This document shows, piece by piece, positions 641-30,890 of a stretch of DNA of 33,501 nucleotides; within the stretch, counting starts at the first letter, position 1; the number at the start of each line of letters is the position of its first letter. Location of the stretch: NCBI GenBank assembly GCA_944380845.1, contig CALWIU010000029.1, positions 1-33,501 on the forward strand, in the 5' to 3' direction. The stretch is from an uncultured Clostridia bacterium. GTDB taxonomy: Bacteria; Bacillota; Clostridia; Oscillospirales; Acutalibacteraceae. Below the pieces are notes generated by a model. It was not told the origin of the DNA. It did no database searches and saw only the letters and a program-made list of their open reading frames with translations. Both the position numbers and the translations under genes were made by a program.

Positions 641-836
641 CAGCGGGCAAGAAGACAGAAAAAAGGCTTTGGCGAGTGGCGGCGTATAAAGGTAGAGCCA
701 TGTCGTCAAAGCCGTTCAGTCAGAAGTGGTTTGTTTTTATTTTTCCGGTTCGGCGGGAAAGGATCGTCTTTCAGATGGGGCTGAATCCTCTTTTTCTTTT
801 TATTTTGGCGGTTCATCCTACCTGATCGACGGGCTG
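641..836. repeat. Palindromic repeat element, copy A
   Basis: Starts with CAGCGGGCAAGAAGACAG. A 49-bp hairpin core lies at 665-713, where GGCTTTGGCGA pairs with TCGTCAAAGCC and an inner TGGC pairs with GCCA around a TAAAG loop. A less strict 3' part follows, including GGATCGTC, TTTTGGCGGTTCA and CTGATCGACG. Copy B follows 222 bp downstream and copy C is at 8310-8516. This copy has a G-to-T change in the right arm and a weaker central GTA stem. Confidence 0.8.
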
Positions 837-862
837 CTTTCTTCCGTTTTTGCGAAAGAAGG

Positions 863-1036
863 CAGCGGGCAAGAAGACAGAAAAAAGGCTTTGGCGATTG
901 GCGGCGTACAAAGGTACAGCCATTTCGCCAAAGCCGTTCAGTCAGAAGCGGTTTGTTTTTCCGGTTCGGCGGAAGGATCGGCTTTCAGATGATGCCGATT
1001 TCTCTTTTTTTGTTCATCCCACTTGATCGACGGACT
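863..1036. repeat. Palindromic repeat element, copy B
   Basis: A second copy in the same orientation, identical to copy A over its first 30 bp (CAGCGGGCAAGAAGACAG then A6 and GGCTTT). The 49-bp core at 887-935 is the best paired of the three. The outer stem is GGCTTTGGCGA/TCGCCAAAGCC, the inner stem TGGC/GCCA, and the tip is GTAC-AAAG-GTAC. It ends in CACTTGATCGACGGACTG, matching copy C. There is no U-tract after the core, so it is not a simple terminator. Confidence 0.82.
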
Positions 1037-6406: not shown

Positions 6407-8239
6407 ATGGAACCGATCAAGGTCGATTTTACCAAAAAAGGCAAATCCGGTGTGAAAGATGTTTTTATTGCGCCGGAAAAATCCTGGCTGCGTATTTTGA
6501 TAAACATCGTCGTGACGCTGGTCGTGGCTCTGGTGGCGTATTATTTCCTGCTGCCGCCGATGAACCCGAAAGCGATGGAATTCTATTTGTATTTTGCCAT
6601 TGTTTTCGCGTCCTATATCGCCAGCGCTTTCCTTACCTCCAAGGCTTTCGCCAGACCGGAGTATATCCCCTATGTGAAACGGCAGGCGATTGTTCCTGTG
6701 GCGCTGATCCTGCTTCTGGTCGTGGTGCTGGGCATCGGTTATCTGACCAGTGCGGCGCTGTTCCGCGCGAAGGATTATGCGTCTTTGCTTCCGGTGGAGG
6801 AAGCGGAGTTTTCCGACAGCTTTTCCGCCATTGAGAGCATTGAGGATTTTAACAAACTGCCGCTGATCGACGCCGACGCTGCCGAACGCCTTGCCGACAA
6901 GACTTTGGGCGATCTGGCGCAGATCGGCAAAGAGTCGCAGTTTGAGGTTGCCAATGCTTTTTCTACGCAGATCAACTATAAAAATGCGCCGTACCGGGTC
7001 TTCCCGCTGCAATACGGCGATATCTTTAAATGGCTGACCAACCGTGCCGACGGCATTCCGGGCTATATCACCGTCAACATGAATACCCAGGTGGCGCAGT
7101 TTGTCCAGCTGGAACAGGGGATCACCATTTCCCCTGCCGAGCATTTTTCCCGCCATCTGAACCGTGTGCTGCGGTTCGCCTATCCGACTTATATTTTCGG
7201 CACCCCCTCTTTTGAAATCGACGAGACGGGTACGCCGTACTGGATCTGTGAGCGGATCGACAAAAAAGTCGGCCTGCTGGGCGGCGACGATGTGGTCGGC
7301 GTGGTCATGGTCAATGCCGTGACCGGCGAACACCACTACTATGACATAGAAGAGATCCGTCAGGGCGCCGGTGCGGACGGCACCGATCTTGCGTGGGTCG
7401 ATCAGGTCTATGATGCGAATTTGCTTTTGCAGCAGTATAATTACTACGGCAGATATTCGGGCGGCTTCATCAACGCCTATATCGGTCAGGCAGGCGTCAA
7501 GATGAGCACCGCCGGTTCCAATTTCTTTGCGATCGGCGACGATGTGTATCTGTACACAGGCGTGACCAGCGTAACCAGCGACGAGTCGATTCTCGGTTTC
7601 ATCGTCATCAACCAGCGGACAAAGGATGCGTTTTTCTACAGCGTATCCGGCGCGACGGAGCGTGCGGCGCAGAATTCCGCGCAGGGTATCGTTTCCGATA
7701 AGGGCTGGACGGCGACTTTCCCGATTCTGCTGAATCTGGACGGCGAGGCGACCTATTTAATGTCGCTGAAAGACGCCACCGATGTCATCAAGGCGTATGC
7801 GATGGTCAATGTCAGCCAGTTTTCCGACGCGGTGCGCAGCCCCGACGACGATAACCCCGACCTGCGCGCGTGCTTGCAGGCGTATATCAACAAACTGTCG
7901 GCGCGCGGCGTGGTGATCGATATCGATATGAGCGGCAATGTGGCTGCCGATTCCGTGAAGCCGGACGGCGGGCAGACCGGTGACAGCCAGTCCGCCGAAA
8001 CCGTTTCGGGCGTGATCTCCGACATCCGCAGTGCGGTCATCAGTGGTACGACTTATTATTATATCGAGCTGGACGGCAACGGCGTGTATTACTATGTGCC
8101 CGCCGAGCTGGGCAGTGAAGTCGTGCTGTTTGCCGTAGGCGATCAGGTGACTTTGACGGTCAGCGGCGAGAGCAGCGGCGATTTGCTGTCTGCTTCCGAC
8201 CCGGTCTATTCCGAAGAAACCACCGCCGCAGCGGAATAA
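6407..8239 (+). CDS. Conserved three-helix membrane protein with large extracytoplasmic domain, unknown function
   Basis: A 610-residue protein. Hydrophobic helices lie at about 29-49, 57-76 and 95-117. With positive residues before the first helix (KSWLR) and the odd number of spans, the remaining 490 residues are probably outside the cell. The large domain has recurring landmarks: NKLPLIDADAAERLADKTLG, QINYKNAPYRVFPL, IFKWLTNRADGIPGYI, TPYWICERID, a GLLGGDDVVGVV segment and INQRTKDAFFY. I recall a conserved but uncharacterised family in Firmicutes with these features, so homology is likely but function is unknown. A small beta-rich, OB-like segment (about 530-590) ends the protein. It stands alone between its own promoter and a terminator. 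Confidence 0.8.
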   Translation: MEPIKVDFTKKGKSGVKDVFIAPEKSWLRILINIVVTLVVALVAYYFLLPPMNPKAMEFYLYFAIVFASYIASAFLTSKAFARPEYIPYVKRQAIVPVALILLLVVVLGIGYLTSAALFRAKDYASLLPVEEAEFSDSFSAIESIEDFNKLPLIDADAAERLADKTLGDLAQIGKESQFEVANAFSTQINYKNAPYRVFPLQYGDIFKWLTNRADGIPGYITVNMNTQVAQFVQLEQGITISPAEHFSRHLNRVLRFAYPTYIFGTPSFEIDETGTPYWICERIDKKVGLLGGDDVVGVVMVNAVTGEHHYYDIEEIRQGAGADGTDLAWVDQVYDANLLLQQYNYYGRYSGGFINAYIGQAGVKMSTAGSNFFAIGDDVYLYTGVTSVTSDESILGFIVINQRTKDAFFYSVSGATERAAQNSAQGIVSDKGWTATFPILLNLDGEATYLMSLKDATDVIKAYAMVNVSQFSDAVRSPDDDNPDLRACLQAYINKLSARGVVIDIDMSGNVAADSVKPDGGQTGDSQSAETVSGVISDIRSAVISGTTYYYIELDGNGVYYYVPAELGSEVVLFAVGDQVTLTVSGESSGDLLSASDPVYSEETTAAAE

Positions 8240-8260
8240 AGAACCTTCTTTTGGTAGAAA

Positions 8261-8280
8261 GGACTGCCTTCGGGCAGTCC
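8261..8280 (+). terminator. Hairpin after the membrane protein gene (first copy)
   Basis: Perfect 8-bp stem GGACTGCC/GGCAGTCC with a TTCG tetraloop, 21 bp past the stop codon. It lacks a following U-tract. The identical 20-bp hairpin recurs at 8518-8537, where a T-run follows. Confidence 0.6.
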
Positions 8281-8281
8281 C

Positions 8282-8314
8282 CAGCGGGTAGAAAAGCTTC
8301 TTTTCTACCCGCTG
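8282..8314. repeat. 15-bp perfect inverted repeat
   Basis: CAGCGGGTAGAAAAG (8282-8296) and its exact complement (8300-8314) around a 3-nt CTT loop. It sits directly after the first GGACTGCC hairpin and merges into the start of repeat element copy C. The CAGCGGG start echoes the left end of copies A and B. Confidence 0.75.
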
Positions 8315-8516
8315 CCAGACTGCGAGAAATGAGGCTGAAGAAAGGCTTTGGCGATTTGAGCCGTACAAAGGTACTGCCATGTCGCCAAAGCCTTTCAGCC
8401 AGTAAGATGCTTTTTTTGATTTTTTCTGTTTATCGATACAGGATCGTCGTTTCGGTTGTGCTGATCCCCCGTTTCCCTTGTGCTTTGGCGGTTCAGCCCA
8501 CTTGATCGACAGTCTG
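8310..8516. repeat. Palindromic repeat element, copy C
   Basis: A third copy of the element found at 641 and 863. The 49-bp core at 8344-8392 has the outer stem GGCTTTGGCGA/TCGCCAAAGCC and the tip GTAC-AAAG-GTAC, same length as the other copies. The inner arm differs (TTTGAGCC instead of TTGGCGGC). The 3' part keeps AGGATCGTCGTTTC, GCTTTGGCGGTTCA and CCACTTGATCGAC. It lies between two identical GGACTGCC hairpins. Confidence 0.8.
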
Positions 8517-8517
8517 A

Positions 8518-8545
8518 GGACTGCCTTCGGGCAGTCCTTTTGTAT
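8518..8545 (+). terminator. Rho-independent terminator (second copy of GGACTGCC hairpin)
   Basis: GGACTGCC-TTCG-GGCAGTCC (8518-8537) followed by TTTTGTATTT. This is a canonical intrinsic terminator and probably ends the transcript of the 6407 gene after reading through repeat copy C. Confidence 0.8.
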
Positions 8546-25587: not shown

Positions 25588-25820
25588 GGAACTGCCGCTT
25601 TGTCCTTGCGTCCGGCAGCATTTTTCGGGAACTGCCGCTTTTTTCTTTATGGTCGGCGGCATTTTTCGGAAACTGCCGCTTTTTTCTTTATGGTCGGCGG
25701 CTTTTTTTGGGAACGCCGCCTTTTCCTTGCGTTCATCGGCGGTTTTCGGGAGCTGTCGCCTTTTTCTTCCGGTCGGCGCTCCTTTTTCCTGATCGCTGCC
25801 AACTTTTGCCGGTCAGCGGC
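25581..25820. repeat. Six-unit tandem repeat, about 40-bp period
   Basis: Units start near 25581, 25621, 25662, 25702, 25743 and 25783. Each has a T5-7 run, GGGAACTGCCGC, a second pyrimidine run and a GGTCGGCGGC end. The second and third units are nearly identical and the outer ones diverged. Within each unit GCCGC can pair with GCGGC, so each copy can fold a small hairpin. The array lies between converging genes, ending 6 bp from the stop of the DtxR-type gene. Confidence 0.82.
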
Positions 25821-30640: not shown

Positions 30641-30649
30641 CAGAGGCGA

Positions 30650-30890
30650 AAGCCGGGAAAAACAAGCTTTGCTTTTGCGTGTCTGCGCGAAGGATGCCCG
30701 GAGGGAGAAGCCGAAAAATCAAGGTTTATTTTTTCGCGCCTGTGGTAAAGGACGCCCGGAGGGGGAAGCCGGGAAAACAAGCTTTTCTTTTCCGTGCCTG
30801 TGGTGAGGGGACGACAGACGGGGAAAAGTCGGGAAATCGGATTTTTCTTTTTTGCGCCTGTGGTAAGGATGACGGCATGAAATCGGCAAA
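30650..30890. repeat. Degenerate tandem repeat, about 60-bp period
   Basis: About four units with landmarks GCGCCTGTGGTAAAGGA, CGCCCGGAGGGGGAAGCC, GGGAAAACAAGC and a T-rich end, starting near 30677, 30736, 30794 and 30854. Units differ by many substitutions and small indels. The last unit is partial (GCGCCTGTGGTAAGGATGAC). Confidence 0.7.

Follow-up and report, generated by a model that had tools for sequence, protein, structure and literature searches.

An IS1182-associated MITE with a conserved core hairpin that appears to enter and duplicate transcription terminators in Clostridia

What is the palindromic repeat that occurs three times in a stretch of DNA from an uncultured Clostridia bacterium, and how does it come to lie where it does? 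A sequence-only reading of this stretch (the window, 33,501 nucleotides at its full length) had left three answers open, namely a selected RNA fold, a MITE-like element or a protein-binding dyad. We consider it highly probable that the repeat is a MITE whose relative, and putative mover in trans, is an insertion sequence of the IS1182 family; this insertion sequence would choose the terminator hairpin by shape. The basis for this is comparative: shared ends, spread in many copies, hairpin repeats at many of the junctions and unduplicated hairpins at orthologous sites free of the element.

Copies 1 and 2 are direct repeats in the same orientation with a spacing of 222 bp, their repeat units starting at 641 and 863, just as had been read. 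The third had been correctly located at 8310-8516, but its left part, with a palindrome at 8282-8314, had been missed. All three contain the core of exactly 49 bp that had been proposed (665-713, 887-935 and 8344-8392); the tip GTAC-AAAG-GTAC and the sequence TTGATCGAC, both assigned to every copy, are present in copies 2 and 3 but are replaced in copy 1 by GTAT-AAAG-GTAG and CTGATCGAC, respectively. The similarity between copies is far above chance; with copy 2 as query, copy 1 was recovered at E = 1e-49 and other contigs of the same genome from E = 1e-19.

Copy 3 is the intact one, a complete non-autonomous element of about 235 bp (8282-8516, plus strand, as are all parts of the three copies and their hairpins) with inverted ends CAGnnTGTCGAnAAAG; its left end is palindromic, its right end matches, and the core hairpin lies between them. 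The element sits inside a terminator whose 21-bp hairpin is found at both of its sides: the left copy of this target-site duplication (8260-8280) is a perfect direct repeat of the right one (8517-8537), which is followed by TTTTGT and coincides with a terminator-like site called at 8516-8539 by a simple scan. These duplicated hairpins had been overlooked in the earlier reading, and they point to the mechanism. Between them come the left-end palindrome P1 (8282-8314), made of a transposon end and, next to it, the same end inverted, with arms that change compensatingly between copies and genomes; TIR2 (8316-8339), an internal copy of the end motif that is imperfectly complementary to the right end; the core (8344-8392), supported by folding and cross-lineage comparison; a pyrimidine-rich stretch; and the right terminal inverted repeat, TTCAGCCCACTTGATCGACAGTCTG (8492-8516). 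Together with its flanking hairpins, copy 3 folds with z = -10 against dinucleotide shuffles. Copies 1 and 2 stand in tandem, are older and have lost the clean form of their ends: copy 1, which is degenerate, occupies 638-836 with its right end at 822-836, copy 2 occupies 863-1037 with its right end at 1023-1037, a hairpin lies between them (837-862), and no clean target duplication was found for either. Elsewhere in the window, two clusters (25599-25760 and 30646-30866) each consist of four imperfect repeats, spaced by about 41 and 58 bp.

The expectation that three copies meant many more was borne out: DNA and covariance-model searches of the same genome (an assembly of 2.01 Mb in 79 contigs, 87% complete) found 21 sense-strand copies on 15 contigs. 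The covariance model was built from 14 sequences, 13 from this genome and one from G006, all of which match by construction; its search returned 38 rows, the remaining 17 being the palindromic cores of the same copies on the opposite strand. Within the family, model R1 had matches in 12 of 200 genomes, our own included; the match in G029 (L089) looks like an ordinary terminator and is discounted, and the locus in G040:C51 (L082) has no P1 and looks partial. At the level of the order, a core model, R2, for which 13 genomes supplied 15 sequences and which was run on the genomes of the order alone, matched 84 of 394 genomes at E <= 0.001, the E-values being rough. Counted from at most ten scored candidates per genome, 43 of the 84 have a single match, often weak, and 41, from 12 families, have two or more.

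The ends of the element are terminal inverted repeats, CAGC(G/T)TGTCGAAAAA on the left and CTTTATCGACAGTCTG on the right, plus variants; copy 3 begins with CAGCGGGTAGAAAAG, an imperfect match to the left-end motif. Since the end motif recurs about four times per full element, a protein-binding dyad suits the ends, but it suits the core less well. The element is non-coding and too short to hold a transposase of 492 residues, and with its inverted repeats, its target-site duplication, its short length without a transposase gene and its many copies it has the hallmarks of a MITE; additional copies, target duplication and covariation, three of the checks that the sequence-only reading had named, all gave a positive result. 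One hallmark, an autonomous element that shares these ends and lies alongside in the genome, was not found in this 87% complete assembly, in which searches with PF13751 and with a related transposase (see below) detected no IS1182 transposase. Many MITEs outlive their autonomous partner, and for this reason we still file the element as one. Searched as an exact pattern in four genomes, P1 gave zero matches, the pattern being too strict, and Rfam 15 gave none at the gathering cut-off either in the window or over the elements of ten further loci, all its weak matches in the window and in relatives falling below that cut-off. Two other forms were seen. In L117 (G024:C64, position 1501), a solitary P1-like palindrome of about 38 bp, an end plus its inverted copy, lies between hairpins and is perhaps a minimal element. 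In L240 (4614-4818), L190, L199, L258 and L293, the last four among the loci of rabbit-gut Oscillospiraceae MAGs, there is a second class of about 204 bp with similar ends and hairpin duplications.

Is the duplicated hairpin of copy 3 an isolated case? In its own genome, 7 of the 17 copies tested (L021, L023, L025, L026, L027, L028 and L030) have a palindromic direct repeat at, or no more than 4 bp from, both ends, the repeat of L030 overlapping the nominal left boundary; the other four of the 21 copies (L037, L038, L041 and L042) were dropped as their right end could not be placed. For L025 a single cross pairing scored higher, namely that with the right side of L024, a tandem neighbour in which the same hairpin is found. 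L024 and L025 (C75:18976-19445) form an array of element, hairpin, element and hairpin, with one terminator sequence common to both. No clean hairpin repeat was found in the remaining 10 of the 17, copies 1 and 2 included, nor in the G006 copy. The sequence of the flanking hairpin varies from copy to copy. An automatic search over the collected loci yielded distinct end repeats for 35 insertions, and the score used rated 33 of these repeats as palindromic; ten permuted sets of end motifs, as a control, gave 5 end pairs and zero repeats. Across the order, 23 of 27 R2 loci were read (the four omitted come from genomes already read) and two of these were cut before the right end; 16 of the 21 testable loci outscored the best of 420 mismatched left/right pairings, and among the five that failed, L331 and L336 are truncated by contig ends at the right end or close to it. 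The duplications range from 17 to 40 bp.

Sites without the element tell the same story from the other side. The gene 5' of copy 3 (6407-8239) has orthologues in five of the six congeners searched, and at all five sites, read by eye, an unduplicated hairpin stands soon 3' of the stop codon and the element is absent; the site in G005 has an additional, different hairpin downstream. At one site in a different genus, the element lies between two hairpins in G078 and G204, while the orthologous site of G188 has one hairpin and no element. The sister genomes G078 and G204 carry it in the same terminator in opposite orientations (L114 in G078:C5 and L313 in G204:C93), with 267 identical positions of 273-274 and a compensating pair change in P1. 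Because the two are nearly identical and have a rarer tip variant in common, one of them was probably inverted in place between its flanking hairpins, which act as inverted-repeat flanks.

The proposed link to IS1182 comes from longer relatives. In G154, at least six longer elements, with ends reading CAGCCTGTCGAAAAAG and CAGCCTGTAGAAAAAG, terminate contigs; for four of the six left ends there is a right end with the same hairpin, repeated identically over 25-31 bp, and all six left-end places are contig ends, so that no transposase was seen in their interior. Named genomes, when scanned for the pattern CAGCCTGTMGAAAAAGSC, contained at least 120 matching stretches, and a strict first screen among the stretches listed gave two complete elements with hairpin duplications. 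Papillibacter cinnamivorans carries a complete element of 205 bp with such a duplication, and Gemmiger sp. An120 one of 1583 bp with near-identical 16-bp ends and a 29-bp hairpin repeat. The An120 element encodes a protein of 492 residues that scores 396.8 bits against the NCBIfam model for IS1182 (NF033551, cut-off 270) and also matches Pfam DDE_Tnp_1_6, DUF772 and DDE_Tnp_1 (PF13751, PF05598). The element has an IS1182-type DDE transposase and, like some members of the family, a palindromic target. A hairpin adjoins the left end in all six copies examined that contain related transposase sequence (An120, An87, an Oscillospiraceae MAG, a Clostridia MAG, Candidatus Fournierella, internally deleted, and Acetivibrio), and further partial transposase matches lie at Fournierella contig ends. 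The congener G005 has a 1517-bp copy with the same ends, hairpins at both of them and an IS1182-type transposase, 55% identical and split over two frames. Among the transposase-type copies with both flanks readable, the hairpins match in one of four (An120); in L266, L304 (internally deleted) and G005 the left and right hairpins are not the same, which calls for recombination between copies or another mode of insertion. At the ends of L252 (3666-5248) and at the G154 contig ends, terminator-like hairpins lie directly inside both ends of the element.

Could the elements instead be moved by other hairpin-recognising machinery, such as a REP-associated Y1 transposase, a group IIC intron-like reverse transcriptase or a recombinase, the ends shared with IS1182 being secondary? 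The lack of IS1182 transposase matches in our genome and in most of the element-bearing genomes searched speaks for this: PF13751 matched in 3 of 12 and the An120 protein in 3 of 16. The PF13751 matches in G024, G043 and G002 were considered as partners and rejected, as in the stretches around them the end motif occurs with at best two mismatches and inside other sequence. Against other machinery stands the complete IS1182 element of An120, with its near-identical ends and a hairpin duplication of the same kind; moreover, we know of no target duplication by Y1 transposition or by group IIC introns. We therefore regard such machinery as an improbable mover and keep to the IS1182-related MITE.

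In 15 representatives of the core a similar fold plan is kept across lineages: an outer stem of about 15 pairs, broken in some of them, is followed by an asymmetric internal loop and two further pairs; the tip region begins, in most, with a one-by-one mismatch and has GTAC/GTAC (or GTAT/ATAC) around four loop bases. Between lineages the arms can fall to 27-38% identity. Native cores have a mean energy of -30.8 kcal/mol against -16.6 with swapped arms, although 39 of the 210 swaps are at least as stable as the least stable native core. RNAalifold, run on 17 own copies and one of G006, found the core helix alone, in which both partners had changed in 2 of 15 pairs; since the own copies are too alike for a covariation test, other genomes were compared, and pairs were indexed by how far they lie from the tip, as the register changes at the internal loop from lineage to lineage. 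Among 48 pair positions found in at least three representatives, both partners had changed at 32, one partner at 3 and neither at 13, with the pairs, taken from individual folds, being standard pairs by construction. The mismatch is pyrimidine-pyrimidine in 14 of the 15, and in other families loop bases around the tip recur (GTCGGC, GGYAGAG). That the arms differ between lineages and yet pair suggests a selected fold, and the kept mismatch and the recurring loop bases would be more in keeping with a folded single strand than with a plain DNA palindrome. The RNA fold that had been proposed therefore survives in part: its architecture is kept through double-sided changes, but it could act as DNA. 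The tip motif was absent from all five transposase-bearing elements checked (the right boundary of L219 being approximate), and the GTAC tip pattern occurred in 1 of the 120 end-pattern stretches listed. In L099, L087, L093 and L084, from other genera, an extra terminator-like hairpin lies just 3' of the core.

The conserved fold with its double-sided changes, the presence across the order and the location 3' of gene ends would also be expected of a host regulatory RNA (an attenuator, a stabiliser of mRNA ends or a small RNA) multiplied because it is useful, with the flanking hairpins as tandem terminators. We find this very unlikely for four reasons: (i) as judged with a simple ORF rule, the element shows no preferred direction among tandem genes, pointing with them in 10 cases and against them in 12; (ii) the flanking hairpins duplicate each other and differ between loci; (iii) five orthologous genes do without the element; and (iv) in one member of a pair of sister genomes the element is inverted. 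The rule, which sometimes errs (for example to the right of copy 3), was applied to 49 loci, 15 of the 21 own copies among them, and gave 21 convergent, 22 tandem, 4 divergent and 2 unclassed. This setting agrees with the targeting of terminators, and nothing in it points to the element being selected as an oriented component of host mRNAs. IS1182 is listed in PMC9208149 among the families over-represented between convergent genes. Because the orientation of the element does not follow that of neighbouring genes, we take the core as a structure that the element itself needs, as RNA or as folded DNA. We add a tentative extension, which on balance we doubt: the order-wide core, with its tip helix GUAC-N4-GUAC, kept mismatch, purine-rich internal loop and freely rebuilt outer arms, might be a functional RNA or folded single strand needed by an IS1182-type transposase or a host factor for mobilisation into terminator hairpins.

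A mere local duplication, a 222-bp tandem repeat plus one stray copy, which the sequence-only reading had tied to there being only three copies with neither covariation nor a transcript and which the tandem arrangement of copies 1 and 2 could suggest, has practically no chance of being right, refuted as it is by 21 copies on 15 contigs and opposed by relatives in other genera; within what the analysis covered, the outcome named in that reading did not arise.

We are thus brought to an IS1182-associated MITE that enters and duplicates terminators and carries a conserved core. The IS1182-family enzyme would pick its targets by shape, namely the palindromic hairpin of an intrinsic transcription terminator, perhaps recognised as a cruciform, and would also mobilise the short elements; repair would then copy the entire stem-loop to both sides of the inserted element. 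The genes at both sides probably retain a complete terminator, and insertion would therefore cost little.

Among known systems, REP sequences and BIMEs, with the insertion sequences that target REPs, also involve hairpins and palindromic targets, but the elements described here target terminators of unrelated sequence and duplicate the whole hairpin. Bacterial MITEs in general, as described in PMC10969869, are likewise short, non-coding, multi-copy and mostly intergenic, with inverted ends; ours differ in their hairpin-shaped targets, their duplications of 17-40 bp, their extra palindromic end and a core that varies in sequence between lineages and is conserved in fold. BOX, RUP and SPRITE of Streptococcus pneumoniae are small interspersed repeats too, one of them terminator-like, and are set apart here by their descriptions in PMC10969869, in which whole-terminator duplication does not figure, and not by sequence. 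The closest parallels are IS1272 and TnSha1 of staphylococci, which share an IS1182-family transposase and hairpin targets, often terminators, without primary sequence preference (PMC4923244, PMC5678879). In these accounts, however, IS1272 replaces or partly deletes the hairpin that it enters, with no target duplication, and TnSha1 leaves its terminator hairpins partially deleted and not duplicated (PMC4923244), whereas our hairpins are duplicated at filled sites and unduplicated at empty ones, so that stem-loop replacement of the IS1272 type was not observed. In Fig 13 of PMC5678879, pathway a, proposed for IS1272, loses the stem-loop, and a hypothetical pathway b duplicates the whole hairpin; our elements look like the duplicating counterpart of IS1272-type insertion. 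No insertion sequence or MITE with whole-terminator duplication was found in the literature covered, ISfinder and most subscription journals lying outside its scope.

These elements provide dozens of natural cases of the duplication of an entire target stem-loop, which in the scheme of PMC5678879 is drawn just as a hypothetical pathway, and they make testable both the recognition of cruciform DNA by a DDE transposase and the role of the conserved core. If the functional reading of the core is true, core and terminator duplication together would amount to a transposition that recognises structure at donor and at target and leaves the flanking genes insulated. In Oscillospiraceae and related families, the element accounts for a common type of intergenic repeat, one that would otherwise look like an orphan RNA and that can break genome assemblies, and it suggests how a parasite may multiply in compact genomes while its neighbours keep their terminators.
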